From contig JAMOUT010000057.1 of NCBI GenBank assembly GCA_027061995.1, forward strand, positions 62,001-126,000: a DNA stretch of 64,000 nucleotides, given 5' to 3'. Below are positions 4,389 through 61,566 of this stretch, in pieces; positions within the stretch are counted from its first letter, which is position 1, and every line of letters starts with the position of its first letter. The notes under the pieces were generated by a model. It worked only from the letters and a program-made list of their open reading frames with translations. It was not told the DNA's origin and did no database searches. The DNA comes from Candidatus Aminicenantota bacterium. GTDB lineage: Bacteria; Acidobacteriota; Aminicenantia; JAMOAD01. The position numbers were made by a program, and so were the translations under genes.

Positions 4389-5113
4389 TTTACAATATCC
4401 AATGTTATTATATTACCTTTTTTTATTTTATAACCTGACATAGGGTTTTGTCGAACGATTGTTCCCGAGGGTATCCCTTGATATTCAACTTTTCTTATTC
4501 CCTCTATTTTAAATCCTTTTTTTTCCATAAAATGAATAACTTGAACAATGTTTTTTCCTATTAAATCCGGCATAACATAAGCAAGTTTTCTCGGGCCATC
4601 CGATATAAGAAGATTTAAGCCCGCTTTTTTAAATGATTCTTTGCCAGGGGAAGGATCTTGCTCGATTATATCTCCTGTTTTATATTTATAGTGTATTGAG
4701 GCTATATTAATGATTGGTATGGAATACTGTTTTAATTCTATTTCCGCTGTTTTGATACTTTTATGCCTTAAATCAGGGACAGTAACTCTTTCTCCTCCGA
4801 GACTTATATTTACAATGACAAAATGATTCTTTTTTATTTTTACCCCCGGTTCCGGTTTTTGACTTACTATCACTCCTTCGGGATATTTCAAACTGAACAC
4901 CTCTTTTCTTTTTGTAAGATAAAGATTATTTTTTGTTAAAATTTTGATTGCTTCTTTTTCGGTTTTTCCTATAAGATTCGGTGTTTGAATTGTCTCCCCT
5001 TTTACCAATATAAACATTGTAATAAACGCTGAAATTAAAAAAAGCGAAATATAGAAAGATGTCCAAAGAAATATTTTTATTATTTTTTTCTTATTTATTT
5101 TTAATCTTAACAT
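4385..5113 (-). CDS. Membrane-anchored triple-PASTA protein
   Basis: One N-terminal transmembrane helix (about residues 11-36) is followed by three PASTA domains (about 42-107, 110-174 and 177-241), each with the P-D-L or P-N-L-x-G start and a G-x-x-V-x-x-Q-x-P-x-x-G turn. PASTA domains bind peptidoglycan fragments or beta-lactams. There is no kinase domain, so this is not a PknB. It is probably an envelope protein that senses or binds the cell wall. It heads the operon with rpe, bamD, DUF59 and uvrC. The promoter at 5122-5150 lies so close to the ATG that the mRNA would be nearly leaderless. Confidence 0.85.
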   Translation of the reverse strand: MLRLKINKKKIIKIFLWTSFYISLFLISAFITMFILVKGETIQTPNLIGKTEKEAIKILTKNNLYLTKRKEVFSLKYPEGVIVSQKPEPGVKIKKNHFVIVNISLGGERVTVPDLRHKSIKTAEIELKQYSIPIINIASIHYKYKTGDIIEQDPSPGKESFKKAGLNLLISDGPRKLAYVMPDLIGKNIVQVIHFMEKKGFKIEGIRKVEYQGIPSGTIVRQNPMSGYKIKKGNIITLDIVK

Positions 5114-5121
5114 AACAGTGT

Positions 5122-5150
5122 TTTATAACATAAATACCCGTTTTTATCAA
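5122..5150 (-). promoter_or_regulatory. Sigma-70-type promoter, near-leaderless, for the PASTA-uvrC operon
   Basis: On the minus strand TTGATA (5150-5145), 17 bases, TATAAA (5127-5122), then only 8 bases to the ATG at 5113. No Shine-Dalgarno sequence is present. Transcription should start at about base 5115. Confidence 0.65.
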
Positions 5151-5250
5151 GTTGAGTTGTTTGCAATGAACCTTGAATAATATGGATTATTGATTCATGA
5201 TATCAATTAAGGCGGTGATGTTGAAATAATTCACATTCAGCATTTATTAT

Positions 5251-5361
5251 TCATAATTATTATTTATTTTCTTACCGATTCATCACTCATAATTCAGAAT
5301 TCATAATTATTATTTATTTTCTTACCGATTCATCACTCATAATTCAGAATTCATAATTATT
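5251..5361. repeat. Two perfect 50-bp tandem copies plus an 11-base partial
   Basis: Bases 5251-5300 and 5301-5350 are identical, and 5351-5361 begins a third copy, which runs into the stop codon of the transporter gene. The unit contains short internal echoes of TCATAATT. It is not CRISPR-like, since there are no spacers. It looks like a recent replication-slippage duplication. Confidence 0.95.
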
Positions 5362-6811
5362 AATTTACCCTTTTTTTCAAACTTAAAGTGATTCCTCCCA
5401 AGCCGACAAGAAGCAAAATAGAACTTTGGAGAATCCTTTTCCAAATTATCCCTGTTGGGGAAAAAGAGTTATAAACAAAAAGTAAACCGAGAAAGGTTAT
5501 CAGGATATAAAAGCCGAACATCACGATATAAGCTCTCCTGTTTGTTTTCTCATTATCCTGCATAAAGAATTTATTATATAAAACCAAACCTATGGAGCTT
5601 AATATCCCCAGAATAAAGAAAAGCATAAAAAAGAGTTTGGGATTATTCCCTTTTTTAGCGATTTCTTCATATAATGTGGCTCCTATGGAACTTCCGAAGA
5701 GAGAGCCTATAACTCCGTATATAAATGCATATCCCATATATACCGCGACTTTATCTTTTGGTGCGATTAACCCTATATATGAATAATACTTGGGATGGGT
5801 AGTCATCTCTCCGATTGAGAAAACCGCAATACCGAGAATAAAAAGCCATGCACTTTTAGTTAAAGCGAGAATTAAAAAACCGGAGGAACCTATCAGTATT
5901 CCTGTAATCATTGTGGGAAGAGGTTTTATCTTTTTTACCAATCTGCTTATTAAGACTTGAAGGAGAATTATTGTCCCTGCGTTAATAACGGTAACATGCT
6001 CAACATCAAATACAAAATTTATGTTTAAACCTATCGAATGAAAAAAATTTGTAATGGAATTGGATATTACGGATCTATTGATAAAATCTCTCAGATACCA
6101 GAGAACACTACCGAAATTCTGGAAATATATGATCCAGAAAAAAGAGTATATGAAAATCAAAAGCATGAATCTTGAATCGCCGAGGACAATAACAATATTT
6201 TTCAAACTTTCTTTCAAGCTTTTATCTTTATCTCTTCCTTCAGGCTCTTTATATAAAAAAATGGAGGGGAAAAGCATTAGAAAAGCCCAAGCTGCGGAAG
6301 CCATGAAAACATATCTCCATGAAAATCCTTTAAGGTATGATACGAGAAGAGGAGCGATAAAAGCTCCGAGATTAATCATCCAATAATAAATACCGAAACC
6401 GAAGCCGCTTGTTTCTTCATCCGTTGTTCTTGCTATTGTGCTTGAAATGATAGGTTTAAATAAACCTGAACCTACACCTACAAGTAAAAGACATGTGAAA
6501 ATGATACCGTATGTTGTAAAATTTCCGGCTGCAAAATAACCGAAGGACAAAAAGGAGAAAGCGATAATTAACATCTTTTTGTAACCGTATTTTTCAGCAA
6601 GAGCACCGCCTACAATAGGCACAATATAAGTTAATGCATAAACTATTGCTTGTAAGAATCCGACACTTTCGTGTTGAAAATGTAGTTTATCGGTCAGATA
6701 AACAGCGAGGACGGAATTCATCCCATAGTATGCCGCCCTTTCAAAAAGTTCCATAACATTAGCAAGCCAGAAAACAGGTTTAAATTTTGATAATATCCCT
6801 TTTTTACTCAT
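5360..6811 (-). CDS. POT/PTR-family proton-coupled peptide transporter
   Basis: A 483-residue, roughly 12-14-helix major facilitator protein. Its first helix carries the E-x-x-E-R motif of proton:oligopeptide symporters (E-L-F-E-R-A-A-Y-Y-G, about residues 21-30). G-G-A-L-A-E-K-Y-G-Y-K-K in loop 2-3 is the usual MFS signature. The family imports di- and tripeptides across the inner membrane. The start is set by AGGAG nine bases upstream. The stop codon lies within the tail of the 50-bp tandem repeat. The gene stands alone with its own promoter. Substrate specificity is inferred from the family only. Confidence 0.85.
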   Translation of the reverse strand: MSKKGILSKFKPVFWLANVMELFERAAYYGMNSVLAVYLTDKLHFQHESVGFLQAIVYALTYIVPIVGGALAEKYGYKKMLIIAFSFLSFGYFAAGNFTTYGIIFTCLLLVGVGSGLFKPIISSTIARTTDEETSGFGFGIYYWMINLGAFIAPLLVSYLKGFSWRYVFMASAAWAFLMLFPSIFLYKEPEGRDKDKSLKESLKNIVIVLGDSRFMLLIFIYSFFWIIYFQNFGSVLWYLRDFINRSVISNSITNFFHSIGLNINFVFDVEHVTVINAGTIILLQVLISRLVKKIKPLPTMITGILIGSSGFLILALTKSAWLFILGIAVFSIGEMTTHPKYYSYIGLIAPKDKVAVYMGYAFIYGVIGSLFGSSIGATLYEEIAKKGNNPKLFFMLFFILGILSSIGLVLYNKFFMQDNEKTNRRAYIVMFGFYILITFLGLLFVYNSFSPTGIIWKRILQSSILLLVGLGGITLSLKKRVN

Positions 6812-6844
6812 TATTCTCCTCTTGTTTGAAGTTTTTGAAAATAA

Positions 6845-6873
6845 AAATTATCATATAAACAAACGAGTGTCAA
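6845..6873 (-). promoter_or_regulatory. Sigma-70-type promoter of the peptide transporter
   Basis: TTGACA (6873-6868), 17 bases, TAATTT (6850-6845) on the minus strand, followed by a leader that carries a Shine-Dalgarno AGGAG. Confidence 0.6.
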
Positions 6874-6983: not shown

Positions 6984-7012
6984 TTTAATATTCTTTTCAT
7001 TTTTAGTATAAT
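6984..7012 (+). promoter_or_regulatory. Leaderless promoter of the exchanger-uvrA pair
   Basis: A perfect TATAAT at 7007-7012 with a weak -35 (TTTAAT, 6984-6989) 17 bases upstream. Only 5 bases separate the -10 from the ATG at 7018, and there is no Shine-Dalgarno sequence. Confidence 0.6.
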
Positions 7013-7017: not shown

Positions 7018-7983
7018 ATGATTTATTTGTGGTGGTTAATATTTGCAATAATACTGGGATTGATTTTTATCTCAGGTGAAAAAGTATCTGTTCTCGGAGA
7101 AAAACTCGCTTTAAGAATAGGTATAACAGAGGGACTGATAGGGGTTACGCTGATATCCGCCATTACCTCTTTTCCCGAACTTTTTACGGGAATAAGCGCT
7201 GTTTCAATCGTTAAGGATCATAATATGATGTTCGGAGAGATTCTCGGTAGTTGCATATTTAATCTGACGATAGTTTCTTTGATGAGCTTAATGTTTAAAA
7301 GAGTAAATCTTTTTAAGGTTATCTCCGAAAGATTCAGAATAACCTCTTTTCTCTCCGGTGTATTGTTTTTGATAGTGGCTTTTTTCCTGAAAGTCAGATT
7401 ACCGTCTCTCTTTTTTATAGGGATTCCCTCTTTAATAATAATCGGACTCTATTTTATAATATTAAAAATAATTTATGATAAAGAATTCAAACCAAAACGG
7501 GAAGAGGAAAAAACGGATGATAATCTCAGTGCGATTGTTGTAAAATTTTCTTTTTTTTCATTAATTATAATAGGCACGGGATTGTATCTTCCGATTCTTG
7601 CGAAAAAGATAGCGGTTGAGATGAATTGGTCATCAACATTTATGGGGATGCTTTTCATAGCGATTGTTACATCAATGCCCGAATTAATCGTATCTTTTGC
7701 GGCTGCAAAAAGGGGACTTTACGGTATAGCCGTTGGAAATATTTTCGGTAGTATCATATTTAATATCCTTATTATTGCTATTATTGATTTTGTTTATATA
7801 AAAGGAACCATATGGCAAGTTGAGAGCTGGGCGAACTTTTGGACTGCTATTGTTGTGGCCGTTATCTCTTTTATTGCTGTTCTTTCGGGAAAATTCGCAA
7901 AAAACAGATTTATGAATATAATATTATCATTGCTTATTGTTGCTGCATATGTATCTGTTTTATTTTTATCTTTCAAATTATAA
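7018..7983 (+). CDS. Sodium/calcium exchanger-family (CaCA) membrane protein
   Basis: A 321-residue polytopic protein of the cation/Ca2+ exchanger superfamily, YrbG-like. Both inverted alpha-repeats are visible: G-V-T-L-I-S-A-I-T-S-F-P-E-L near residue 41 and G-M-L-F-I-A-I-V-T-S-M-P-E-L near 211. Each is followed by the G-x-I-x-G-S-x-I-F-N segment. The paired Glu residues bind the cation. It probably exports Ca2+ in exchange for Na+ or H+ across the inner membrane. uvrA starts 3 bases after its stop, so the two are co-transcribed, with no evident functional link. Confidence 0.9.
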   Translation: MIYLWWLIFAIILGLIFISGEKVSVLGEKLALRIGITEGLIGVTLISAITSFPELFTGISAVSIVKDHNMMFGEILGSCIFNLTIVSLMSLMFKRVNLFKVISERFRITSFLSGVLFLIVAFFLKVRLPSLFFIGIPSLIIIGLYFIILKIIYDKEFKPKREEEKTDDNLSAIVVKFSFFSLIIIGTGLYLPILAKKIAVEMNWSSTFMGMLFIAIVTSMPELIVSFAAAKRGLYGIAVGNIFGSIIFNILIIAIIDFVYIKGTIWQVESWANFWTAIVVAVISFIAVLSGKFAKNRFMNIILSLLIVAAYVSVLFLSFKL

Positions 7984-10943: not shown

Positions 10944-12560
10944 TCAATTTCTAACTTTTAATGATAAGAACAAACCTGTAAACAAAAAGCCGGATAAAAG
11001 TTGCACGGAGTAAAAAACAGTATTATTAAAATAAAACAGGAGGAGAGCAAGTAGAAGAAAAGGGATTAACAAGAGTATGGTTATCTTAAATTTTGAAACA
11101 ATAATATCATTAAGAATCAAATAACCGCTCCAAACACCGATAAAAAACAGTGTGAAAATCAATGGCGAATTATCGTATAATTCAAAATTATTTTTTATAT
11201 ATATATTTAAGGAAAAAAAGGTGAACAAAAATAGTAAAGCCGGGGAGATTAATAAATTAAAACCTCTTTTTTTAAGAATAAAAAGCGGGGTAATCAATAA
11301 AAAGATTGACAATAACAGGATAAACAATTTTTTTAAAATATTTTTGTTCTTAAGATTCATAAGTTTCAAAATAATATTTTTATCTTTTTTTAGAATAAAA
11401 ATATTTTTTGAAATTTTATCAAAAAAAGGTGGAGGGGATTTATCTTTTTCTCCGATTGACAAGATTTTTCCGTATTGTTTTAATTTTCCCGAAAGATATA
11501 AAAGATTATCTGTTTCATGGAAATATTTAGAGAATATCTCATGCTCATTGTATTTCGGAAGTAATATCAAATCATATTTTTTATTAACGGGAGTTTTAAA
11601 TTTACCGTGAAATATTTTTACATTGGATTCTAACAAAGCTCTTATGATTTCGGGAAAATCATAAGCTATTTCATAATAAAATTTTTCTTCCCCGATATAA
11701 TAATCAATATTAAAAATGCCTATCCTAATAAATTCGTTTACTATGGCGGGATTATTATTTAATATTAAGATATCCCCGAATTTCATTCCGGTTTCAGTTA
11801 AAAAAGTTTTAAAATTTTTATTTTTAAAAGGGAATTTGAAAACAGTTTTAAAATTTCGTATGAAATAAACTCTTTTATTTTTATCCGCAACAAAATATTG
11901 CCCTGTTTCAGTTTCAAAATATTTTATCGGATGAAAACCGGTTGTTTCTTTTTTTATAATATTATTATTTGCAAGAATGAAGAATGCAAATATGGGGACA
12001 ATAAATAGTATTGATATTATTCTGCTTTTCCCTTTTTCTATGAAAATAAGAAGGATACCTATGTATAATATTCCGAGTGTCATTACAATAAACCAATTAT
12101 TTAACCCCGAACGGATTAACAGATATATTAGAAACGGAGAAAGAGATATACCGAAAAACAGAATATTATATGGATAGCGAACCTCAGATGCGGATTTTAT
12201 AATCAGTTTTATCTTTAAACTTAGAATAAACGGGGTAAAGATGATTAAGAAAAATAATAGAAACAGGGTTATAGGAGAGGGGGAACTTATTATTCTCTCG
12301 CTGAGTTTAAAAAAATATAAGATAACCGTTATGAATAGAAAAATCCAAAGAATAATATTTTTCAGGTTATTTTCCATATTAATCGTTGAATTTTTATCAA
12401 ACACAAAGCCGGTATATGTTCCTATAATCCAAAATATTGGTAAGGAGCTGATTATCAAAGGTGAAGTATAAAATAAAACAAAGAGTTCTCTGAAAATAAT
12501 CGTGAGAAATCCCCCGTAAAAAAAAGCTGTTATGAATATATAAATATTTTTATTGCTCAT
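10944..12560 (-). CDS. Polytopic membrane protein with a degenerate spermidine-synthase-like centre
   Basis: A 538-residue protein with about six N-terminal helices, a soluble middle (about 200-400) and about five C-terminal helices. The layout resembles bacterial membrane proteins fused to a spermidine synthase-like fold. The middle has D-I-L-I-L-N-N-N-P-A-I-V-N-E and later K-Y-D-L-I-L-L-P, matching the positions of the nucleotide-binding strand and the D-x-I strand of that fold. The glycine-rich G-G-G-D/E-G motif is missing, so catalysis is doubtful. It lies 32 bases downstream of the beta-barrel gene of the secA-guaB group. The assignment is tentative. Confidence 0.45.
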   Translation of the reverse strand: MSNKNIYIFITAFFYGGFLTIIFRELFVLFYTSPLIISSLPIFWIIGTYTGFVFDKNSTINMENNLKNIILWIFLFITVILYFFKLSERIISSPSPITLFLLFFLIIFTPFILSLKIKLIIKSASEVRYPYNILFFGISLSPFLIYLLIRSGLNNWFIVMTLGILYIGILLIFIEKGKSRIISILFIVPIFAFFILANNNIIKKETTGFHPIKYFETETGQYFVADKNKRVYFIRNFKTVFKFPFKNKNFKTFLTETGMKFGDILILNNNPAIVNEFIRIGIFNIDYYIGEEKFYYEIAYDFPEIIRALLESNVKIFHGKFKTPVNKKYDLILLPKYNEHEIFSKYFHETDNLLYLSGKLKQYGKILSIGEKDKSPPPFFDKISKNIFILKKDKNIILKLMNLKNKNILKKLFILLLSIFLLITPLFILKKRGFNLLISPALLFLFTFFSLNIYIKNNFELYDNSPLIFTLFFIGVWSGYLILNDIIVSKFKITILLLIPFLLLALLLFYFNNTVFYSVQLLSGFLFTGLFLSLKVRN

Positions 12561-14656: not shown

Positions 14657-17359
14657 TTACCTCCTCTTTTTCTTCTTTTTCTTTGGTATTGAACCTTTTA
14701 TTTTAAATTTCGGTTTCATCTCTCTTTTTATCTCTTCTTCAGGGACGGGGGTGAATGAAAACAGTATTTTCAAAGATTCCTCTTCTATTATATTTATTGT
14801 GTGTTGAAACATATCAAACCCCTCTCTTTTATATTCCACAAGAGGATCTCTCTGTCCGTAGCCTCTCAGTCCTATTCCCTCTTTAAGGTGGTCCATTGCA
14901 AGAAGATGTTCTTTCCATCGGGTATCAATTGTCTGAAGAAGTATGACTCTCTCTATCTCTCTCATCTGTTCATTGCCGACCAAATTCTCTTTTTCTTCAT
15001 ATATTTCATGTAATTTTTTCAAAACCTCTTCAAGATATTCATTTCCGTCAAAACCCTCTTTTTCTATATCAAGCATATCGGGATCAACAAAAAATTGCGC
15101 TCTCATTCTTGTTTTAAATCTATCCCAATCCCAATCTTCAAAAAAGGTTTCTCTGTTCATATTAGTTTCTTCACCTATTTGAAACAGGATATCTTCGGTT
15201 AATTGATTAAAGTATTCTTTTTGAGATTTTCCCTCGAGAATAGCTTTTCTCATTGCATAGATAACTTCTCTCTGTTTGTTCATAACATCATCATATTCAA
15301 GAAGATGTTTTCTTATGGAGAAGTTTTGTGCTTCTATCTGTTTTTGAGCTCTTTCTATTGCATTTGAAACCATCTTATGTTTGATAGGTTCTCCCTCTTG
15401 AAGCCCGCTTAATTGCATAATTCTTGATAATCTGTCCGCTCCCCAGATTCTCATAAGATCATCTCCGAGAGAGAGAAAGAATTTTGACATACCGGGATCC
15501 CCCTGCCTTCCGCATCTTCCCCTTAACTGATTATCGATTCTTCTTGCTTCATGTCTTTCTGTTCCTATGACATATAAACCGCCTAATTCAAGAACTTTAT
15601 CGTGTTCCATTTTTGTTTTATCTTCAAAATCCTTAAGAGTTTTTTCCCATTCTTCGGGACTGATATCTTCAATCTTTTTCCCTTTCTTTTTAAAATATTC
15701 TCTTGTCAAAAATTCGGGATTACCGCCGAGAAGTATATCCGTTCCTCTTCCCGCCATATTTGTGGCGATTGTAACAGCTCCTATTCTTCCCGCTTGAGCG
15801 ACAATTTCCGCCTCTTTTTCATGGAATTTGGCATTCAGGACCACATGTTTCACCTTTCTTCTTTTTAATAATCTTGATAATTTTTCCGATTTTTCTATTG
15901 AAACAGTTCCCACAAGCATGGGTTGCCCTCTGTCATTATGTTTTTTTATCTCTTCGACAACAGCATCCCATTTTTCTTCGGGTGTTCTGTATATCTCATC
16001 ATCAAACTCTTTTCTTATAAGTTTTTTATTTGTGGGAATAACAAGAACGGGGAGTTTGTAAATTTCAAGAAATTCGGCTGCTTCTGTCTCGGCTGTTCCC
16101 GTCATACCCGAGAGTTTTCTATACATTCTGAAATAATTCTGAAAAGTTATTGATGCAAGTGTTTGATACTCTTCCTGAACTCTAACCCCCTCTTTTGCTT
16201 CAAGTGCCTGATGAAGCCCTTCGGAGTATCTTCTACCGGGCATCAATCTTCCCGTAAATTCATCTACAATAACAACCTGTCCGTCTTTAACCATATAATC
16301 AACATCTCTTTCAAAAAGGGAGTGAGCTTTAAGAGCTTGATTTATTGCGCTTACAAGTTCCATATGTTTAATATCATATATATTTTCCATTTTAAAATAT
16401 TTTTCCGCTTTGGCAATCCCCTCTTCGGTTAGGGCAACTGTTTTGGATTTTTCATCCACCTCATAATCCCCTTCCTGTTTTCGAGGTTCCTTTTTTTGAG
16501 CAAACATTGATGAAACCTGCTCTTTATTTGTTATAATTGATTTTCTAAGAGGTCTGACAAATCTGTCAACTTTATAATATAAATCAACATTTTCTTCCGT
16601 AGGTCCCGAGATTATGAGAGGTGTTCTCGCTTCATCTATTAATATACTGTCAACTTCATCAACAATGGCGAAATTATGCCCTCTTTGAACAAGCTCTTCA
16701 ATATAATATTTCATATTGTCTCTGAGATAGTCGAAACCGAACTCATTGTTTGTTCCATAGGTTATATCACAATTATAAGCGGCTTGTCTGTCCTTGTCCT
16801 CCATCTCATGCTGGATGAATCCGACGGTTAGCCCGAGAAATTCAAAAATCTTACCCATCCATTCTCTATCCCTTTTTGCAAGATAATCATTAACAGTTAC
16901 AATATGAACCCCTCTGTTTTTTCTCGGATTTCCGTTTTCATCTATGGAATCAAGAGCATTAAGGTAAGCTGGCAGGGTTGCCACAAGAGTCTTTCCTTCC
17001 CCTGTTTTCATCTCAGCGATATTCCCCTTATGAAGGATAATACCCCCGAGAATCTGGACATCGAAATGTCGCATATTCACGACTCTTCTGCCGGTTTCTC
17101 TTACAACCGCGAAAGCTTCCGGTAATATATCGTCAAGATAATCCTTGACCCTTTCTTCAACTATTTTATCATCTTCATATTGATTATAAATCTCATTTAT
17201 CTTTTCTCTGTAAATTGCGGTTTTCCCTTTTAATTCATCATCACTTAGTTTAACAATATCTGGTTCAAGTTCAGAGATTTTGCGAACAAGCGGATAATAT
17301 TTTTTTAATTCCCTCTCATTCTTTGTTCCGAAAAATTTTTGCACAATCCAATCAAACAT
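14657..17359 (-). CDS. secA: Protein translocase motor subunit SecA
   Basis: The ATPase that drives preproteins through SecYEG. Walker A is G-E-G-K-T near residue 120 and Walker B is V-D-E-V-D-S near 200. The helicase-like motif T-N-M-A-G-R-G-T-D and G-R-C-G-R-Q-G-D-P are also intact. I place the start at ATG 17359 (M-F-D-W), not at the TTG six bases earlier: M-F is the usual SecA start, and a promoter ends 5 bases upstream. The protein ends in a run of Lys/Arg after G-S-I-P. The zinc-binding SEC-C tail that contacts SecB is absent. guaB follows after 1 base. Confidence 0.98.
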
Positions 17360-17364: not shown

Positions 17365-17393
17365 ATTTTATATGTTTTATCTTATTTAGTCAA
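17365..17393 (-). promoter_or_regulatory. Leaderless promoter of secA-guaB
   Basis: TTGACT (17393-17388), 17 bases, TAAAAT (17370-17365) on the minus strand, then 5 bases to the ATG at 17359. No Shine-Dalgarno sequence is present. It supports the start chosen for secA. Confidence 0.7.
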
Positions 17394-17709: not shown

Positions 17710-17738
17710 TTGACTATGAGCAAAGAAAAAATTATCAT
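17710..17738 (+). promoter_or_regulatory. Leaderless promoter of the rfbB operon
   Basis: TTGACT (17710-17715), 17 bases, TATCAT (17733-17738), then 6 bases to ATG 17745. It lies inside the longer open frame that begins at 17658, which argues that the extra 29 codons are not translated. Confidence 0.7.
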
Positions 17739-17744: not shown

Positions 17745-18770
17745 ATGAAAATAGAAGAATTAAAATCTGTTTTGATCACAGGTGGTTATGGTTTCATAGG
17801 CTCAAATTTTATAAGATTATTAAGGGAAAAGAATCCTTCCGTTAAAATATATAATTTTGATAAATTGACCTATGCCGCAAATATAGAAAATCTTAAGGAT
17901 TTTGAAAATGATTCTAACTATACATTTATAAGAGGGGATATTAAGGATGGTTCCATGCTTGATATAATTTTCCCCAAGGTGGAACTTGTCGTTCATTTTG
18001 CCGCTGAAACACATGTTGATCGTTCCATACATAATCCGGGTGAGTTTGTTTTAACCGATGTTTACGGCACTTTTTCACTTCTTGAAAAGATGAAACAACA
18101 TAAAAATGTCAAACTTTTCATTCATATATCAACGGATGAAGTTTACGGAAGTATTAAAAAGGGGAGTTTTACCGAGGATTCCCCCATGAATCCCTCTTCT
18201 CCCTATTCAGCAAGTAAAACGGGTGCTGACAGACTTGCTTATTCCTATTTTAAAACTTATGAATTGCCGATAATTATTGTTCGACCGTCAAATAATTACG
18301 GCCCGTATCAACATGTTGAAAAATTCATCCCTCTGTTTATAACAAATGTTATCGAGGAAAGAAGTTTACCCCTTTACGGAACCGGAGAAAATATAAGAGA
18401 TTGGCTTTTTGTTGAAGATAATTGCAAAGCGATAATGACTGTAATTGAAAAAGGAAAAACGGGAGAAGCTTATAATATAGGGGCGTCACAGGAGAAAAAA
18501 AACATTGAAGTTGTTGATATGATTTTGAATTATTTTAATAAAAGCAGAGACATTCTTGATTTTGTTGATGATAGAAGAGCTCATGATTTCAGATATTCTT
18601 TGAATTGGGATAAAATCGGTAAACTTGGTTGGAAACCCGAGGTAAATTTTGATGAGGGGCTTAAAAGGACTATAGAATGGTATATAAATAACAGAAATTG
18701 GTGGGAGAAGGTAAAAAAGGGGGAATTCAGTAATTTTTACCAAAAAAATTATAAAAAGGAATTACAATGA
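17745..18770 (+). CDS. rfbB: dTDP-glucose 4,6-dehydratase (RmlB)
   Basis: Extended short-chain dehydrogenase that converts dTDP-glucose to dTDP-4-keto-6-deoxyglucose, a precursor of rhamnose and other surface sugars. It has the NAD-binding motif T-G-G-Y-G-F-I-G-S-N-F near residue 13, S-T-D-E-V-Y-G near 127, the catalytic Y-S-A-S-K (Tyr154, Lys158), S-N-N-Y-G-P-Y-Q near 180 and R-D-W-L-F-V-E-D-N near 215. These are diagnostic of RmlB rather than a general epimerase. The next gene overlaps its stop by 4 bases. RmlA, C and D are not in the window. Confidence 0.92.
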   Translation: MKIEELKSVLITGGYGFIGSNFIRLLREKNPSVKIYNFDKLTYAANIENLKDFENDSNYTFIRGDIKDGSMLDIIFPKVELVVHFAAETHVDRSIHNPGEFVLTDVYGTFSLLEKMKQHKNVKLFIHISTDEVYGSIKKGSFTEDSPMNPSSPYSASKTGADRLAYSYFKTYELPIIIVRPSNNYGPYQHVEKFIPLFITNVIEERSLPLYGTGENIRDWLFVEDNCKAIMTVIEKGKTGEAYNIGASQEKKNIEVVDMILNYFNKSRDILDFVDDRRAHDFRYSLNWDKIGKLGWKPEVNFDEGLKRTIEWYINNRNWWEKVKKGEFSNFYQKNYKKELQ

Positions 18771-23884: not shown

Positions 23885-23905
23885 ATAAATAAATCTTTTA
23901 TTTAT
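23885..23905. terminator. AT-only hairpin between convergent genes
   Basis: Nine-base perfect arms ATAAATAAA and TTTATTTAT with a three-base loop, lying right after the thioredoxin stop and across the stop of the convergent SDR gene. The position suits a bidirectional terminator, but the stem holds no G or C. Confidence 0.4.
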
Positions 23906-24867
23906 AATAATCCCTGTTTTTTATACCAAGCTATTGTTATTTTCATCCCCTCTTTGAATTTTATTTTAGGGGAATAATTAAAGAGCTTTTTGGCTTTTTC
24001 TATTGAAAGAGGTTTGCTTCTCTCAAAAAAAGCAAGACTTGATGATGTTAACGGGAGAGTTATTCCGAGAGGTTTGGAGATTGCATCAAGAGATTTTGCC
24101 AGAAGTTTGAGTGGAAGAAGCGGGATTTTAAAAGGGAGAATCTTTTTATTAAGAGTTTTGGCAATGGTTTTTACCATCTCTTCTATTGTTAAAATTTCAT
24201 CCGAGCTCATATTAAATATCTCTCCCGAAGGGATGTTTTTTGATTTCATTAAGAGGATTATTCCTTCTGCAATATCTTCAACGAAAACAGGGGTTTGTTT
24301 ACCATCCCCTTTCCCGGCTATAAAAAAATATCCTTTATTTATTGTTCTGAAAAGTTTAAGTGTTCTTTTATCCTCGGGACCATATATCCAACCCGGCCGG
24401 ATAATCTTTATGTTTATTTTATCTTTGAATTTTAATACAGCTTTTTCCCCTTCATATTTTGTTTTTTCATAATTATCTTCAGGGGTGGGAGGAAAGTTTT
24501 CATCAATAACCCCTTGTTTTGTCCCTTTCCCGTAAACTCCAGCGGAGCTTATGTATATGAAATTTTTTATTCCGGAAGAAATTGCCGCTTTAACCATATT
24601 TTCGGGAAAAAGAGTGTTTATTTTATAATAATAATCATAATCAGCTTTTGTCCATCCGAGAGCAGCAGCCATATGAATGATTGTATCAGCTCCGGCTATA
24701 ATTTGTTTTAGAAAATCAAAGGATATATTATCTGTTTTTATCTCTTTTACCCCTTTGATTTTTGAACTTGTTTTATTGATAAGATTTACAGTTTCATACC
24801 CTTCATCAACAAGTTTTCGTAAAACGAATTTTCCCAAAAAACCGGAACCACCTGTAACAATTATCAT
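23902..24867 (-). CDS. NAD-dependent epimerase/dehydratase-family protein
   Basis: A 321-residue extended SDR: T-G-G-S-G-F-L-G at residue 5, H-M-A-A-A near 66, I-S-S-A-G-V-Y-G near 105, catalytic Y-E-K-T-K near 132 and I-R-P-G-W-I-Y-G-P near 156. The C-terminal half resembles sterol or sugar-nucleotide dehydrogenases rather than a defined epimerase. A leaderless promoter precedes the ATG. Substrate unknown. Confidence 0.8.
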   Translation of the reverse strand: MIIVTGGSGFLGKFVLRKLVDEGYETVNLINKTSSKIKGVKEIKTDNISFDFLKQIIAGADTIIHMAAALGWTKADYDYYYKINTLFPENMVKAAISSGIKNFIYISSAGVYGKGTKQGVIDENFPPTPEDNYEKTKYEGEKAVLKFKDKINIKIIRPGWIYGPEDKRTLKLFRTINKGYFFIAGKGDGKQTPVFVEDIAEGIILLMKSKNIPSGEIFNMSSDEILTIEEMVKTIAKTLNKKILPFKIPLLPLKLLAKSLDAISKPLGITLPLTSSSLAFFERSKPLSIEKAKKLFNYSPKIKFKEGMKITIAWYKKQGLL

Positions 24868-24872: not shown

Positions 24873-24901
24873 ATGATATAATAATTATAAAAACCGGTCA
24901 A
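24873..24901 (-). promoter_or_regulatory. Leaderless promoter of the SDR gene
   Basis: TTGACC (24901-24896), 17 bases, TATCAT (24878-24873), then 5 bases to the ATG at 24867. No Shine-Dalgarno sequence. Confidence 0.6.
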
Positions 24902-24994: not shown

Positions 24995-26425
24995 TTATAA
25001 TTGGGTTTTAAAAACAAAAATATGTTTTATTAGATTTCGAGGAATGATTACTATTGTTTCTCCATTTTCTATGGTTGATTTAAGCTTTTCACCCGATAGT
25101 GTTCTGAATATCGAGTTTGCGGGAAATATTTTTTTAAGAGAGATTCTTTTTGTATTATTATTATCGGGAAAATGAAATATATGGACAGTATCAGCTTTTT
25201 TATTGAATCTTATATTCCCGAAACCATATATTTTAAAAGTTGTTGTTCCATAAATAGCTTCTCCGTTAATTTTAAGCCATTCACCAATCTCCTTCAGTAT
25301 TTTGTAAGCTTCGGGATCCCAATCACCTTCGGGTGAGGGAGCGATATTTAAAAGGAGATTTCCCCCTTTTGATACTATATCAATAAGCATTCGGATAATT
25401 TGCTCTGATGATTTATATATCGGTTTTTTAACAAAAGACCAACTTTGAGACATAGGAATACAGGATTCCCAAGGGTAGGGAATAATATTCTCGGGGACAG
25501 TATTTTCTGGAGTCAGATAATTTTGATTCTTCCCTTCGACAGATCTGTCAACAACTATCATATCTGGCTGTTTTTCTCTGATTCTATCAACTAATTCATC
25601 CATCTTTATATCTTGTGATACTATTCTGTGCTTAATAAAGCCTGTTTTTGATTCTTTGGCTTTTTCTTTATAAAAGTTTTCAATATCCTGTTTTGAACTC
25701 TTTGCAACCCAGCCACCGTCAAGCCATATAATATCAATCTTTCCGTAATTACTCACAAGCTCCATAATCTGATTATGGGTAAATCTGACAAATTTATTCC
25801 AAAGCGACGGATAAGTAGCGGGATCATAATTCACATTCCTATCGAACGGTGGGAAAGAGGGGTTCCAATAGTATTCTGAGTGCCAATCGGGTTTTGAAAA
25901 ATAAGCACCCACCCAAAGCCCCTTCTTCCTGAAACTATTAAAAATCTCTTTTGTTATATCGGCTCTTTTATTTTTACCGAAGGGGCAATCTTTAGCCGTT
26001 ATCTTATAATCAGTGTATTTTGTATCAAACATGCAAAATCCGTCATGGTGTTTTGTGGTAAAGATAAGGTATTTCATGCCCGCCTGTTTCGCAGCTTTTG
26101 CCCATTTGTCGGGATTAAATTTCACAGGATTAAAACTGTTTTTAAGAGATTCATACTCCTTTTTGTATTTGAAATAGTTTTCGGGATTTTTGCCGGTTGT
26201 TCTTTTACACCATTCATAATCTTCGGGAACAAGGGACCAAGATTCCACTATTCCCCACTGACTGTATATGCCCCAGTGCATCAAAAGACCGAATTTCAGA
26301 TTTTGCCATTTTTTGATTTTTTCTCTTACGAGAGGGTTTGAATCTGTGATATATCTATATTGTTTTGCATAAGATACGATTAAAACAGATAAAAAAATAA
26401 GGATGATGAAATATTTTTTTTTCAT
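24995..26425 (-). CDS. Secreted alpha-L-fucosidase, GH29 family
   Basis: Removes alpha-linked L-fucose from glycans. The 476-residue protein has an N-terminal signal peptide, then F-G-L-L-M-H-W-G-I-Y-S near residue 45, T-K-H-H-D-G-F near 125, and the nucleophile strand I-I-W-L-D-G-G-W with Asp236. Later there is G-G-N-L-L-L-N-I-A-P-S-P-E-G-D-W near 360, a GH29 signature. It acts outside the inner membrane, suggesting use of fucosylated polysaccharide or glycoprotein. It is monocistronic under a leaderless promoter. Confidence 0.93.
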   Translation of the reverse strand: MKKKYFIILIFLSVLIVSYAKQYRYITDSNPLVREKIKKWQNLKFGLLMHWGIYSQWGIVESWSLVPEDYEWCKRTTGKNPENYFKYKKEYESLKNSFNPVKFNPDKWAKAAKQAGMKYLIFTTKHHDGFCMFDTKYTDYKITAKDCPFGKNKRADITKEIFNSFRKKGLWVGAYFSKPDWHSEYYWNPSFPPFDRNVNYDPATYPSLWNKFVRFTHNQIMELVSNYGKIDIIWLDGGWVAKSSKQDIENFYKEKAKESKTGFIKHRIVSQDIKMDELVDRIREKQPDMIVVDRSVEGKNQNYLTPENTVPENIIPYPWESCIPMSQSWSFVKKPIYKSSEQIIRMLIDIVSKGGNLLLNIAPSPEGDWDPEAYKILKEIGEWLKINGEAIYGTTTFKIYGFGNIRFNKKADTVHIFHFPDNNNTKRISLKKIFPANSIFRTLSGEKLKSTIENGETIVIIPRNLIKHIFVFKTQL

Positions 26426-26431: not shown

Positions 26432-26460
26432 ATAATAGCCTTGAAACCTTGTTTTGTCAA
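26432..26460 (-). promoter_or_regulatory. Leaderless promoter of the fucosidase
   Basis: Perfect TTGACA (26460-26455), 17 bases, TATTAT (26437-26432), then 6 bases to the ATG at 26425. No Shine-Dalgarno sequence. Confidence 0.7.
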
Positions 26461-37723: not shown

Positions 37724-37752
37724 TTGAAAGATAGATGAATATATTTTATAAT
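37724..37752 (+). promoter_or_regulatory. Near-leaderless promoter of the HDOD-kinase/ppdK operon
   Basis: TTGAAA (37724-37729), 17 bases, perfect TATAAT (37747-37752), then 9 bases to ATG 37762. No Shine-Dalgarno sequence. Confidence 0.6.
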
Positions 37753-37761: not shown

Positions 37762-40335
37762 ATGATAAAAAGTTTAAACCTTGATCAAATCCCGATTATT
37801 TCAAAAACAATAATTGATATTTTTAAATATGAAAGAAAAAATCAGATAGAATTTTCTCAAACATTATCGGAGATTATTGCTAAAGATCCAGGATTGTCAT
37901 CTAAAATATTAAAATTTGCCAATTCCCCTTATTATGGGTTTATGGGGAAAATATCCACCGTTAGACATGCTATTAATCTCTTGGGAGTTGAAACAGTAAA
38001 AAACATAGTATTAAGGTCATCAATAACCGATATTTTTCTGAAACTTAAAAATGATAAAATATTAAAAAATATTTATACATATTTTCTGAAAAGGGGTTTA
38101 ATTGCCGGTGTTGTTAGTAAAATATTGTGTGAAACACTTGGCTTGGGAACTCCGGAGAGTTTTTTGTTGAGAGGAACTTTACTTAAAATCGGTAATATAG
38201 CTTTGATAATGAATTTTGAAGAAAAATATGATTTTGTTGTGGAAAAATTGTATGACAATGATTTATTAGACGAGGAAAGGAGAAGATTCGGGACTGATTC
38301 TGTTGAAGTTGGTAAATACCTTGTTGAACAATGGAATTTCCCTTATGAATTCTATCAGTCAATTGACAACCACATTGAGATTAAAAACAATGATTATATT
38401 TCAAAAGTTGCTTATATCTCAAATCTGTTTTCCGAATTATTGTTATTGAAGGATGAAACAAAAAGGGACCTATTGATGGATAGATTTAAAGTTAAATTAA
38501 AAGAGATATTTAATTTAAGCTTTTCGGATATAGATGTATTTAAAGGGGAGTTAGAGCTTGAAATAAAATTGTTTATAGAAGGTGCCCCCGAATTTAGTGA
38601 TAATTGTAAAGAGGTGTTGGAGCTTTTCGATAATATACAGAAAAAACTTGTGGAAGAGATTAATGACCTCGAAGAGATTAATAAAAAACTAAATAAATTG
38701 AAGAATCAAATTGCCTTGGAAAAAAAATACCTTAAACTAAATCTTAGATTCGCAAAAAGCTTATCATGGATTAGTGAACCTCAATATCTTATAAACAAAA
38801 TATTACATCAGATAAATTATTTAACTCAAAAAGCCGAAGCAAAATTTATATTTTGGGATATTAACTCAAAGCAATTTTATGCTTATAAATTAAATGATTC
38901 AAAAAATAATGTTTACATATATGATTTAAAAAAAGCTCCGCTTTATGAGAGAAGTTATAAATTAAGAGAGATTCAAATTAAAAATTTTGATGATAGTATA
39001 TTGGTTGTTATCCCTGTCTTTTATGAAACAACATCCTATGGTATTATCCCGATTTTATTTGAAAATAAAAAAGATTATTCATCGGAATTGATAAGTGCTA
39101 TTGAGACAGCTGCAAATATTGTGGCTAATGCTTTTAATAATTATTATTCAAATGAGAGGGTAAAAAAAGAGATAATAAAAAAATATGTAATGTTTGATGA
39201 AATTAAAAACGGGATGTTTAATAATCAGAGGATGAAAGAGATAATAAAAGAACTGCAATTGTATAATATTCACAAATATATATTAAGAAGTATTATACAT
39301 AAATTAAATAATAAATTAACACCGGTGATAGGGTATGCTCAGATGATTGAGGGAAAATCCGCAGATGAAAAGATGAATGAGAGAGTTTCGATAATAAGGA
39401 AAAATTCGGATGAAGTGGTTCAAATCTTAAATCGTTTATTTGAGCAATTCTCAGCTCCTGTTCTTCAAAAAGAGATTATTAATCTGAATATGTTGATTAA
39501 AGAGAAGATACAATTGATAGATTATAAGATAAAAGAGGAGGGGATTAAAGTTGAATTTGAACTTGAAAACGGATTGCCGGATATATATTTTTCAAGGGTT
39601 CAACTTGGAGATGTAATAATGAATCTGATTGTGAATTCAATTGAAGCTGTGGAACGGACAGATAAAGCTGAGAAAAGACTAAAGGTGAAAACCTATTATG
39701 ATTCCCTGAATTTTTATATTGAGGTTAGTGATAATGGGGTAGGGATAGATGAAAAGATACAGGAAAAAATATTCGAACCGTTTTTTACAACTTATGATAA
39801 TAAAAACGGATTAGGGTTAAATTTTGTTCATGGTTTTGTTAATGCAAATCAGGGTTCAATAGATATAAAAAGTAAAGTTGGGGTCGGAACAACAATAACA
39901 ATATCTTTTTATGCGAAAACCATTAAACAACCTAAGAAAGAAAAAATAGATAAGGGTAATTTTAAAATATTGATTGTGGATGATGAAGAGAGTTTGGTTG
40001 AATTACTTACCGAATTTTTGAATTATGAGGGATTAAACAATATAAGCACGGCAAAAGACGGAGAGAAAGCTATTAATTTGATTAAAAAGAATCAATATAA
40101 TCTTATTATTACCGATATAAGGATGCCGAAAGTATCAGGAATAGAGCTTTACAGGTGGTTGAAGAGTGAGAAAAAAGATGTTGATGTGATTTTTATAACA
40201 GCTGAGATTTCTTCGGAAGAATTGAATAAAATTATTAATAATGATAAAATCCCGATATTACAAAAACCTTTCTCCTTAATGGAATTTACAGGGTTGATTT
40301 ATGAATTTATAAGTAAGAAATATATGGAGGTATAA
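37762..40335 (+). CDS. Hybrid signalling protein: HDOD, GAF-like, histidine kinase, receiver
   Basis: An 857-residue cytoplasmic protein. HDOD domain at about 5-200 ([19 protein letters not shown]). A sensor-like region spans about 320-460. A dimerisation helix with [13 protein letters not shown] follows (His near 513). The HATPase has N-S-I-E-A near 625, D-N-G-V-G-I-D near 658 and N-G-L-G-L-N near 684. A C-terminal receiver has Asp785 in I-T-D-I-R-M-P-K. All phosphotransfer residues are present. ppdK begins one base after its stop. Confidence 0.88.
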
Positions 40336-45705: not shown

Positions 45706-46125
45706 TCACTCTCCTATAATTTGTATTAATATCTCTCTGTCTCTGTCTCTCTCATCAAAGTTTAATACGATTATCTGTTGCCAGGTTCCGAGAAAAAGTT
45801 TACCGTTAACAAAAGGGATGGATAATGATGTCTTCTGGAGAGAAGAGCGAAGGTGGGAAAATCCATTATAATCTCCCCATGTTTTTGTATGATGGTAAGG
45901 TTTGTCTGAAGGGGCGATTTTTTCCATTAATTCTTCATAATCTTTCATTAGATTGGGTTCATATTCTATGGTTGTGATTCCTCCTGTTGAACCTTTGATA
46001 CTGATTATTACGATTCCTGCGGAAAAATTTTCTTCCATGATAAAATTTTGAACCTCGGAAGTTATATCGACACTTCCGATTTTAGCCTTTAAAAAACTTG
46101 ATAATAATCTGCTTTTTACCCTCAT
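45706..46125 (-). CDS. yjbQ: YjbQ/UPF0047-family protein
   Basis: 139 residues with the family hallmarks: G-S-T-G-G-I near 45, H-H-T-K-T-W-G-D-Y-N-G-F-S-H-L-R-S-S near 77, and G-T-W-Q-Q-I-I near 113, followed by R-D-R-D-R-E-I-L. Members show weak thiamine-phosphate synthase activity in vitro, but the cellular role is not settled. It has its own leaderless promoter and is followed after 4 bases by the Maf gene. Confidence 0.92.
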   Translation of the reverse strand: MRVKSRLLSSFLKAKIGSVDITSEVQNFIMEENFSAGIVIISIKGSTGGITTIEYEPNLMKDYEELMEKIAPSDKPYHHTKTWGDYNGFSHLRSSLQKTSLSIPFVNGKLFLGTWQQIIVLNFDERDRDREILIQIIGE

Positions 46126-46130: not shown

Positions 46131-46159
46131 AATATATTTTAAAATATGATTTTAGTCAA
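46131..46159 (-). promoter_or_regulatory. Leaderless promoter of yjbQ-maf-barrel
   Basis: TTGACT (46159-46154), 17 bases, TATATT (46136-46131) on the minus strand, 5 bases before the ATG at 46125. No Shine-Dalgarno sequence. It separates this group from the flagellar filament operon upstream. Confidence 0.65.
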
Positions 46160-52107: not shown

Positions 52108-52542
52108 TTATTCCTCCTTTAATTTTTTATTTTCGATTTTATATTCATAGGATACTTCTGCGGTTTTACTTAACATTGCAGATATTGAGCAATATTTATC
52201 ATGTGATAATTTGATTGCTTTCGCAAATAATTTTTCATCAATATTATCACCTGTGATTTTAAACAATAATCTGATTTTCGTATATACTTTCGGATGCTTT
52301 GGTGCTCTCTCGTATTCAAGAATCGAAATTTCAAAATCATCCCATTCGACCTCCATCTTTCTCAGTATGGCAACAACATCCATTCCCGTGCAACCGAGAA
52401 GACTTATAAGGCATAATTCCATAGGTCTTGTTGCTGTATCTTCACCTCCTACTTCCGGTCCTGCATCCATAACAACACTATGACCGGAATCACCGTTACC
52501 AACGAATTTCATCCCGTCAACCCATTTAATCTTTACACTCAT
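52108..52542 (-). CDS. OsmC/Ohr-family protein
   Basis: About 144 residues from ATG 52542. OsmC-family features are the R-P-M-E-L-C-L-I-S-L-L-G-C-T-G-M-D region with two cysteines (peroxidatic candidates) and the A-I-K-L-S-H-D-K-Y-C-S-I-S-A-M-L segment near the C-terminus. Family members reduce organic hydroperoxides. The start is set by GGAGGTAAG; the open frame begins four codons higher but would put the Shine-Dalgarno inside the gene. It overlaps the rrf2 stop by 17 bases. Confidence 0.85.
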   Translation of the reverse strand: MSVKIKWVDGMKFVGNGDSGHSVVMDAGPEVGGEDTATRPMELCLISLLGCTGMDVVAILRKMEVEWDDFEISILEYERAPKHPKVYTKIRLLFKITGDNIDEKLFAKAIKLSHDKYCSISAMLSKTAEVSYEYKIENKKLKEE

Positions 52543-52942
52543 TCTTACCTCCAATTAAAAGTTTTTCCAGTGTTATCGAACTCAAATATTTGTTTATCAT
52601 ATTATTAAGATTATCCCATACGGGGTATATATAACAATTTTTTTTATAGATACAATCTTTTTTTAAATCCTCACAATGTATAACATCTATCCTTTTTTCA
52701 AGGCATACGATTATATCCTTAAGAGTCAGTTCATCTGTTTTTTTTGTAAGGGAATATCCCCCTTTAGGGCCCCTTTTACCTTTAACGATGCCACATGTTT
52801 CAAGATCGGAAAATATCCTTTCGAGATATTTTCTGGAAATAAGATATTTTTCCGATAACTCTCTTATCGAAACTGTTTTATCTTTCTCTTTAAACTCTCC
52901 GAGAGCTAATAATGCATATTTTGTTTTACTTGTTATTCTCAT
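52526..52942 (-). CDS. Rrf2-family transcriptional regulator with three cysteines
   Basis: A 138-residue winged-helix regulator: K-T-K-Y-A-L-L-A-L near residue 6, S-I-R-E-L-S-E-K-Y near 25, recognition helix L-E-R-I-F-S-D-L near 40, G-P-K-G-G-Y-S-L near 58. Cys90, Cys97 and Cys103 (C-x6-C-x5-C) resemble the [2Fe-2S] ligand set of IscR or NsrR. It leads the osmC-PDO-trxB operon and has a palindrome in its own promoter, so an Fe-S or redox-sensing autorepressor is likely. Confidence 0.9.
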   Translation of the reverse strand: MRITSKTKYALLALGEFKEKDKTVSIRELSEKYLISRKYLERIFSDLETCGIVKGKRGPKGGYSLTKKTDELTLKDIIVCLEKRIDVIHCEDLKKDCIYKKNCYIYPVWDNLNNMINKYLSSITLEKLLIGGKNECKD

Positions 52943-58950: not shown

Positions 58951-59136
58951 TTAATCTATATTCTTTTTTAATAATTCGGAAGCTATTTTTTTTATTTTGT
59001 TGACATTATCCGCCGAATCTTCTATTGTAGCTGCTTCCTTCTTTGTGATTTTGCTCTTTTCTGCTAATTTTATTCGGCCCTCAAGCCCTAATTCATTCTC
59101 AACTATCTTAAAAATTGATAATATCTTATCGCCCAT
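58951..59136 (-). CDS. Small hypothetical protein of the Roadblock cassette
   Basis: 61 residues, helical and charged (I-V-E-N-E-L-G-L-E-G-R-I-K-L-A-E, then A-A-T-I-E-D-S-A-D-N-V-N-K-I-K-K-I-A). No family recognised. GGAGG lies just upstream of the ATG, so it is probably translated. It lies 19 bases after the Roadblock gene on the same strand and may be a partner or adaptor of it. Confidence 0.6.
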   Translation of the reverse strand: MGDKILSIFKIVENELGLEGRIKLAEKSKITKKEAATIEDSADNVNKIKKIASELLKKNID

Positions 59137-59155
59137 ATTATTCCTCCGTTTAAGG

Positions 59156-59530: not shown

Positions 59531-59539
59531 TTTTTCCTC

Positions 59540-60607
59540 CTATGATTTAAGATTTTTTATTTTTATTTCCTTTGTAATTTTCGGAAGTATGATATTTAAA
59601 AATAAGCCGAGTTGAATTTTTGAAATATCTATGGTCATTCCTAATAAATAATTATTGATAGGAGAAATGATTATTATTATGAATTTTCCGGAATTAATCA
59701 AATAATAATCTCCCAAATGAGTATCCAAATATTTTGATAATTCTTTGTTAATCAATGAAGTTAATGATGAAAAATCCTTATAAGAGCCCTCGTCTATATT
59801 ATATTGAAAGATAGAGGAGTTGTCTGATAATGATATTAATTCGGCATTAATTATGGAATCATCTAAATCATCTTTAAATTTTTCAAAGAATTCATGAAAA
59901 ACTTTTGTATCTGAATTATTATTGTTACTATTATTATTATTGTTGTTTTCATCTATTTTTCTTACAGTTTCCAAAATACCGAATTCAATAGGAATTGAAA
60001 CATCATCGTTTTCCTCTATATAGGGTGTTTCCGTAAAAATATAATCATCTAATTTCTGAATTTCTTCCAATGCTTCCAATCCTTCCAATTTGCCGAATTT
60101 ACATTTTTTTAAAAATCCGTTTTTAACATTGATGATTCCATTTCCTTTTTTGGATTTTATTGATATTGAAGTTTTCTTATTGGAATATTTTAAAATTTGT
60201 AGTAATGTCATTATGTCAATGTTAATTTGTGCTATATTATTTTCTTTGTTTTTTAATGATTTCTCGATTAAATTCTCCAACCTGTCTATTGAGAATGGTT
60301 TTTCAAGAAGGTATTGTATTCCGAGAGATAAAAGCTCTTTATTATACATCATAGAGGGGAATCCCGTTATAACAATGAATTTTTTACCGGGGAATTTTTT
60401 CAGAACTTCTCTTATAAATTGAATACCATCCATTTCAGGCATATTGATATCTACTATGAATAAATCGATTTTTTTGATATTAATGCTTTTTAATGCTTTT
60501 AAAGGTGAATTAAATATTATTATTTCATAACGATTATTTAAACTGTCTTTAAGAAGTTTTAACAAATTTTTGTCATCATCTAAAATTAAGATATTCTTTT
60601 TTTTCAT
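59540..60607 (-). CDS. Response regulator with DUF4388-like and Roadblock-like domains
   Basis: 355 residues from ATG 60607. Residues about 1-120 are a receiver: I-L-I-L-D-D-D, phospho-acceptor Asp53 in I-V-D-I-N-M-P-E-M-D, and K-P-F near 102. Residues about 125-215 resemble the DUF4388/PATAN sensory-regulatory domain (L-L-Q-I-L-K-Y-S-N-K-K, G-I-I-N-V-K-N-G). A linker with 10 Asn follows near 230, then a Roadblock-like end (L-G-D-Y-Y-L-I-N, L-F-L-N-I-I-L-P-K-I). It has no DNA-binding domain, so output is likely by protein contact. A receiver-controlled Roadblock protein. Confidence 0.75.
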   Translation of the reverse strand: MKKKNILILDDDKNLLKLLKDSLNNRYEIIIFNSPLKALKSINIKKIDLFIVDINMPEMDGIQFIREVLKKFPGKKFIVITGFPSMMYNKELLSLGIQYLLEKPFSIDRLENLIEKSLKNKENNIAQINIDIMTLLQILKYSNKKTSISIKSKKGNGIINVKNGFLKKCKFGKLEGLEALEEIQKLDDYIFTETPYIEENDDVSIPIEFGILETVRKIDENNNNNNSNNNNSDTKVFHEFFEKFKDDLDDSIINAELISLSDNSSIFQYNIDEGSYKDFSSLTSLINKELSKYLDTHLGDYYLINSGKFIIIIISPINNYLLGMTIDISKIQLGLFLNIILPKITKEIKIKNLKS

Positions 60608-60629
60608 AATTCTTTTGCCATAACAACTT

Positions 60630-60658
60630 ATGTTATAAAAACTAATTCTTTTTGTCAA
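60630..60658 (-). promoter_or_regulatory. Promoter of the Roadblock cassette
   Basis: Perfect TTGACA (60658-60653), 17 bases, TAACAT (60635-60630). An inverted repeat (ATAACA and TGTTAT, 60620-60636) overlaps the -10 and may be an operator. Confidence 0.5.
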
Positions 60659-61114
60659 GTAAAATCGACCCTCCCCGTGGAAATAGCATAAGCAATGCAT
60701 GATAGAGGACAAAGTTGTTAAATTGAAAAAAAAAATAAATTGGATAAAACATAATATAATAATCTTGGTATTATTGTCGGAGATTACGAGTAAATTTCTA
60801 ATGGTATTAAATCTTAAAATAAATTATAAAAAGGTAAACACTATGCTTTAGTAAACCGCTGGAATAGACATTGTGGTATGGAAAACACAATAATATATTT
60901 TTCAGTATAAAGAGTTTTTCATTTGAGTTAAATAAGGAAGGGATAACGCGGACATATGATTAACTAATACAAAAAGTTGTGTTTTTATAGATTATAAACT
61001 TGATGCAACCCTTGTATCATCAAAGAGTGAAAATGAAACATACGGGATTATGGTGGAGGGATTATTTATAAAAGAGTGAAATGCCATAATCATAATTTAA
61101 ATGTTATAACAGAA
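60659..61114. other. Gene-free region upstream of the Roadblock cassette
   Basis: About 450 bases, AT-rich, between the cassette promoter and the stop of the secreted-protein gene. I see no ORF with a plausible start, no known RNA and no repeat. It may be eroded coding sequence, but nothing recognisable remains. Confidence 0.5.
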
Positions 61115-61531
61115 TCAAATTTTTATCTTTTTTGAATTCTTATAAGATTTTCCGTTTGAATTATAGTATATTGTAAATTTATATTTTGATGATTTTCTAT
61201 TATTATATCTAAGGTTAATTTTTATATTTGTAAAAGTATAAAGCCCGAAACCTGTAATTTTATAAACGGGAGGATTGTTCTCCGCATATTTGTAAATAAG
61301 TGTATCATTAGAATCATATACCTCATTCATATATTGTTCGATATTAAGATCAAGACCTTTTGTTTCTGTTAACATGACATTCAAATATATAATATCATAG
61401 CGACCATCACCGTTCGTATCAACATATTTAACTCTTTCAATTGAGATAAGGAGGTCGGGAGTTGTTTTCTTATCACACTTATTGTATAAAAACATTAACA
61501 AGATAATAATAAATACACTATATTTTTTCAT
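61115..61531 (-). CDS. Small secreted protein, intact paralogue of the gene at 58608
   Basis: 138 residues: a hydrophobic N-terminal segment (about 5-18), then Cys19 in Y-N-K-C, which is a poor lipobox, so either a weak lipoprotein or a signal anchor. The mature part has a D-T-N-G-D-G-R-Y-D loop, which resembles a calcium-binding (dockerin/EF-type) loop, and beta-rich segments. Family not recognised. Leaderless promoter upstream. Its deleted twin lies 2.3 kb away on the same strand. Confidence 0.65.
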   Translation of the reverse strand: MKKYSVFIIILLMFLYNKCDKKTTPDLLISIERVKYVDTNGDGRYDIIYLNVMLTETKGLDLNIEQYMNEVYDSNDTLIYKYAENNPPVYKITGFGLYTFTNIKINLRYNNRKSSKYKFTIYYNSNGKSYKNSKKIKI

Positions 61532-61537
61532 ATATTT

Positions 61538-61566
61538 ATTATATTAATAGTTTTGTTTAATATCAA
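61538..61566 (-). promoter_or_regulatory. Leaderless promoter of the secreted protein at 61115
   Basis: TTGATA (61566-61561), 17 bases, perfect TATAAT (61543-61538), then 6 bases to the ATG at 61531. No Shine-Dalgarno sequence. Confidence 0.7.

Follow-up and report, generated by a model that had tools for sequence, protein, structure and literature searches.

Many first genes of transcription units in this Candidatus Aminicenantota genome are predicted, with high confidence, to be transcribed from sigma-70-type promoters so close to the ATG that their mRNAs would be leaderless, or carry a leader of 0-3 nt, beside genes that rely on Shine-Dalgarno (SD) initiation. The prediction draws on four features established at the sequence level: the promoter geometry, its genome-wide enrichment, its conservation across genera and families, and the absence of an SD. 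The window, meaning the whole 64,000-nt stretch of DNA that was analysed, covers bases 62001-126000 of contig C57, from an assembly of 2.36 Mb in 104 contigs (95% complete). Genome-wide counts were made on a sample of 1.13 Mb of the same genome (GC 32.4%), in which 922 genes were called. The gene caller was a simple script of our own whose only inputs were coding potential and start-codon type, so starts were picked blind to promoters and SD sequences; it gives a wrong start for some genes.

Near-start promoters in the window

Nine first genes of the window had been proposed to lack an SD and to carry a -35/-10 pair with 17-bp spacing whose -10 ends 5-9 nt short of the ATG, and direct reading bore this out for all nine. 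The pairs are of the sigma-70 type with a spacing of exactly 17 bp in 9/9, the distances from the end of the -10 to the ATG are 5, 5, 5, 5, 6, 6, 6, 8 and 9 nt, and no SD lies upstream in 9/9, an absence that is partly forced because the -10 fills the SD position.

On the forward strand, the Na/Ca exchanger gene (7018-7983; PF01699) has its promoter at 6984-7012, with a weak -35 (TTTAAT, 6984-6989) and a -10 (TATAAT, 7007-7012) 5 nt from the ATG. The promoter of the rfbB-like gene (17745-18770) occupies 17710-17738, with TTGACT at 17710-17715 and TATCAT at 17733-17738, 6 nt from the ATG; that of the HDOD/histidine-kinase gene (37762-40335; PF08668, PF02518) lies at 37724-37752, with TTGAAA and TATAAT and a distance of 9 nt. 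On the reverse strand, the PASTA-domain gene (4385-5113; PF03793) is preceded by a promoter at 5122-5150 (-35 TTGATA, 5145-5150; -10 TATAAA, 5122-5127; 8 nt to the ATG), and secA (14657-17359), identified by its SecA Pfam domains, by one at 17365-17393 (TTGACT, 17388-17393; TAAAAT, 17365-17370; 5 nt). The SDR/epimerase gene (23902-24867) has TTGACC and TATCAT within 24873-24901, 5 nt from the ATG; its score under the promoter matrix described below, 5.4, falls just below the 6-bit cut-off. The alpha-L-fucosidase gene (24995-26425; PF01120) has TTGACA and TATTAT within 26432-26460, at 6 nt, and yjbQ (UPF0047; 45706-46125; PF01894) has TTGACT and TATATT within 46131-46159, at 5 nt. Finally, a gene without a Pfam match (61115-61531) has its promoter at 61538-61566, with TTGATA at 61561-61566 and TATAAT at 61538-61543, 6 nt from the ATG. 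The first call for this gene had been a later ATG; a two-mode start model gives 61531, as the original prediction had.

Direct reading also confirmed the SD-led genes that had been named as a contrast: flgF (26849) is preceded by AAGGAGGT, fliC (57452) by AAGGAG and the TPR gene at 61661 by TGGAGGT.

Several other features were seen in the window. At 5234-5376, between the promoter of the PASTA-domain gene and the end of a membrane-transporter-like gene (5360-6811), a 50-nt unit is repeated head to tail, as two copies 88% alike and a partial third. The reverse-strand gene 52526-52942 has a TATAAT ending 26 nt before its ATG, followed directly by CCTACTATTAAAGTAGG, which forms a small perfect hairpin within the predicted leader, and then by a weak AGGA. 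Another reverse-strand gene, 10944-12560, has a TATAAT ending 23 nt upstream of the start and no SD; as an SD-less leadered gene, it is a candidate for a third mode of initiation.

Genome-wide enrichment and two predicted modes of initiation

To locate near-start boxes throughout the sample, a -10-like box was defined as a TATAAT-type hexamer with the TA and the final T fixed and one change permitted between them. Among 356 operon-first genes, boxes at spacers of 5, 6 and 7 nt numbered 30, 26 and 10, against an expectation of about 5 per position. Together, 66/356 first genes have a box 5-7 nt before the ATG (about 15 expected) versus 10/459 operon-internal genes (Fisher P ~3e-16), and the 459 internal genes show no peak at this distance. 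When 65 first genes were aligned on the -10, a TTGAca -35 emerged at exactly 17 bp, outside the selection criteria. A -35 with at least 5/6 matching bases stands at 17 bp in 19/65 genes and at any other spacing in 0-2, and control boxes gave a flat profile. The near-ATG -10 boxes are not a chance effect, and placement of this type is confined to the first genes of transcription units.

A cross-validated promoter matrix, trained without the window's contig and applied with a cut-off of at least 6 bits at 4-9 nt before the ATG, gave the same picture. On the window's contig, it found sites in 13/45 first genes, compared with 1-4 in other 6-nt blocks. In the whole sample, 77/191 first genes lacking an SD have a site at 4-9 nt, versus 4-11 per block elsewhere, and near-ATG sites occur in 5/459 operon-internal genes. 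Only 1/165 SD-led first genes has such a site, a scarcity that was given no weight because it is partly forced, as the -10 and the SD would share the same bases. In the SD-led first genes, the matrix instead places the -10 across a spread of 16-40 nt upstream, which leaves space for an SD leader. This spread, set beside the near-ATG peak in first genes, supports the two modes of initiation that had been proposed.

Re-calling of 344 first genes with the two-mode start model assigned 192 to the SD class, 88 to the leaderless class and 64 to neither, the last class including some wrongly called starts. The same calling with the promoter moved to decoy positions, at 40-45, 60-65 and 80-85 nt, gave 28, 15 and 25 calls, although some of these decoy matches are real promoters of leadered genes. 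On these counts, about 20-25% of first genes, and around a tenth of all sampled genes, are predicted to be leaderless.

One alternative is that the near-ATG boxes are AT-rich coincidences in a genome of 32% GC and that true transcription starts lie upstream, giving SD-less leaders that are read, in the manner of Bacteroidetes, through an A-rich or Kozak-like signal. The first genes with neither signal are compatible with it, but it does not account for the positional peak, the emergent -35 at 17 bp or the absence of the boxes in operon-internal genes, nor for conservation of the arrangement from genus to genus and at SecA identities as low as 60%. A Bacteroidetes-type leader, with its promoter well upstream and an A-rich signal, was not what was seen, as the -10 is 5-9 nt away and the base at -1 is T-rich. 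We regard this explanation as very improbable.

In the 88 leaderless calls, the base just before the start codon agrees with transcription from the ATG itself. It is T in 52% of these calls and A in 26%, as against 22% and 53% in operon-internal genes, which fits a pyrimidine(-1)-purine(+1) context if the A of the ATG is +1. The start codon is ATG in 86/88 of these calls versus 240/256 of the other first genes. The 5' ends of five coding regions showed no special structure. A further alternative is that the start codons are mis-assigned and the real, SD-led starts lie downstream; in 8/88 calls another in-frame start, preceded by an SD, does occur within 75 nt. These are the only such cases among the 88, an in-frame stop lies at most 13 codons upstream in 69/88, and in relatives the SecA N-terminus begins at the predicted ATG with the frame closed by TAG or TAA just upstream. 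General mis-assignment is therefore hardly credible.

The promoters would be ordinary housekeeping promoters whose natural start lies about 6-8 nt past the -10. At spacers of 5 or 6 nt (64/88 calls), +1 would coincide with the first base of the ATG, and at 7-9 nt a few nucleotides before it at most; at 8-9 nt (16/88), a leader of 1-3 nt would be as likely as none. Since the leader would be absent or 0-3 nt long, no SD would be possible on the mRNA. From this geometry we infer the exact transcription start and translation from that AUG on a leaderless mRNA. By analogy with other bacteria, the ribosome may start at the 5'-terminal AUG either as an intact 70S or as a 30S drawn by the 5'-AUG and the initiator tRNA. 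The cell would run two modes side by side, because downstream genes of the operons, like other first genes, are read by SD initiation.

The calls with spacers of 8-9 nt, together with family f5 of the class, where the secA spacer is mostly of this length, leave room for a variant in which the mRNAs are not strictly leaderless and the 30S binds unstructured A/T-rich 5' ends through short SD-less leaders of 1-5 nt. At the predominant spacers of 5-6 nt, such a leader would be possible only with an unusually short discriminator, and mRNAs of this kind are in any case generally classed as leaderless (up to 5 nt in PMC3898074). We consider the variant unlikely as a general description and retain leaderless initiation as the preferred reading.

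The translation machinery gave no indication of an altered ribosome, SD initiation is widely used in the same genome and IF3 is present. Loss of ribosomal protein S1 was considered as a cause and rejected, since bS1 is found in 38/40 class genomes, including four relatives in family f1, and is missing only from G000 and from G023, which is 83% complete. In G000, the search for a multi-domain ribosomal protein S1 found none, whereas the four relatives in its family carry such a protein of 575-583 aa; an assembly gap is the probable cause, with recent loss as the alternative.

Conservation of secA and of predicted initiation mode

The secA upstream regions of 29 relatives, drawn from nine families in the class, were compared. 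In families f1, f2, f3, f5, f6, f7, f8 and f9, the order is a TTG-type -35, a gap of 16-18 bp (mostly 17), a -10, 5-9 nt and an ATG without SD. The -10 is weak in some relatives (e.g. TAAAAA, AAAAAT), and a TAG or TAA often directly precedes the ATG; where it closes the frame just upstream, the conserved SecA N-termini start exactly at the predicted ATG. The geometry is kept down to 60% SecA identity. Family f4 has an SD-type leader with GGAG in 5/5 sampled members. Three further f1 genomes share the rfbB promoter geometry; outside this family, rfbB was uninformative as a conservation test, as the gene stands in another context. Because the start geometry of secA and rfbB is conserved, the leaderless reading is supported independently of the counts made within the genome.

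Matching of genes from this genome with those of other f1 genomes gave 11 leaderless/leaderless pairs, which by our own count represent seven distinct genes with secA and rfbB three times each, 25 SD/SD pairs and one discordant pair, which is a domain match only. The initiation mode of a gene thus appears, from sequence, to be shared nearly always among genera of the family. In G003, from another genus of the family, a box lies at 5-6 nt in 8/21 first genes without SD, with the -35 at exactly 17 in 4 of the 8, and in 0/18 SD-led first genes.

A possible history, to which we give slightly less than an even chance, is that leaderless secA is ancestral and was kept across a class that also uses leaderless starts for many other genes, with one family later changing to an SD leader. 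In one Rokuibacteriota and one Nitrospiraceae genome (L107, L122), secA likewise has a TATAAT-like box, which lies about 7-9 nt from the ATG, so that leaderless secA may extend more widely than this class.

The class was surveyed with a strict pattern, TTGA-N18..20-TATNAT-N5..7-ATG, using the reversed pattern and a placement at 11-13 nt as controls. The pattern exceeded its reversed control in 60/60 class genomes (1365 vs 150) and the 11-13 nt placement in 53/60 (1365 vs 737), and only the latter excess counts because the 11-13 nt placement likewise lies above its own reversed control. That placement was rejected as a clean null because real promoters that happen to be followed by an ATG inflate it. 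Families f4, f8, f5 and f1 have the strongest excess and none was seen in f2, f9 and f74, a ranking that is only rough because GC content affects the counts. The genome-wide enrichment of -10 boxes at this short distance from the ATG, which the original prediction had named as a check, was found in this genome, in G003 and in most class genomes.

Two genomes stood apart in the survey. In G005 (f2), unlike most of the class, promoter-like pairs number 35 at 11-13 nt versus 16 at 5-7 nt, possibly reflecting short SD-less leaders of about 5 nt. Outside the class, most genomes of the same phylum have few pattern matches, with exceptions such as G108 (f43, another class), whose 105 matches vs 20 in the control are the highest there; its lineage may be a second leaderless-rich lineage of the phylum. 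The 16S rRNA was not found in this assembly. In a SecA tree, for which distant named relatives were found by a contig scan with the SecA alignment, the class adjoins named Acidobacteriota, and an 'Acidobacteria bacterium' (L100) falls inside it. Taken with genome sizes and the range of GC content, this position makes Aminicenantia the probable identity of the class.

Relation to known leaderless systems

The leaderless mode, even its presence in the neighbouring phylum, is already known. Leptospira interrogans is a diderm spirochaete of about 35% GC. Its dRNA-seq map contains about 440 5'UTRs shorter than 10 nt, half of them shorter than 2 nt (PMC5243855), so leaderless mRNAs were mapped there, in an unrelated phylum, and are predicted here. 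Leaderless genes were predicted in 207/953 bacterial genomes by Zheng et al. 2011 (PMC3160421), including 3/3 Acidobacteria genomes, with 9.7-19.4% of genes; a later estimate puts predicted leaderless transcription in 21.6% of bacterial species (PMC9581028). The suggestion that such starts are less well described in low-GC diderms was thus overstated, given the Leptospira (PMC5243855) and Acidobacteria (PMC3160421) results.

The closest parallel is with the TA-led genes of the 2011 study (PMC3160421), which carry a -10-like signal (TAtAAT) some 10 bp before the start codon, lack an SD and are mixed with SD-led genes; the genes described here differ in their full -35, rigid 17-bp spacing and class-wide secA conservation. 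The class was very probably absent from that set, as only three Acidobacteria genomes were then included. In Mycobacterium tuberculosis, about a quarter of genes have a transcription start no more than 5 bp from the start codon, beside SD mRNAs, and a TANNNT -10 stands shortly before the transcription start, as here; that genome is of high GC and no conserved -35 was found in it (PMC3898074), whereas TTGAca at 17 bp is clear in the present one. The new elements are the lineage, a clear -35 at rigid spacing, and a predicted leaderless secA that is conserved from family to family, with a switch to SD in one of them. In a partial library, a literature search found no paper linking leaderless genes with Aminicenantes, and a title and abstract search for leaderless and secA found none on such conservation.

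With these results, an uncultured class adjoining the Acidobacteriota, represented here by genomes alone, joins the lineages in which leaderless initiation is predicted to be abundant, and conservation at the level of individual genes makes the prediction testable. They also indicate that start calling blind to leaderless promoters misplaces some start codons, as at 61531. SecA is the essential secretion ATPase, and its gene provides a natural case, within a single class, in which families differ by a switch from leaderless to SD initiation. If leaderless secA is indeed ancestral and retained, secretion capacity would respond to conditions that move ribosomes between SD and leaderless initiation.
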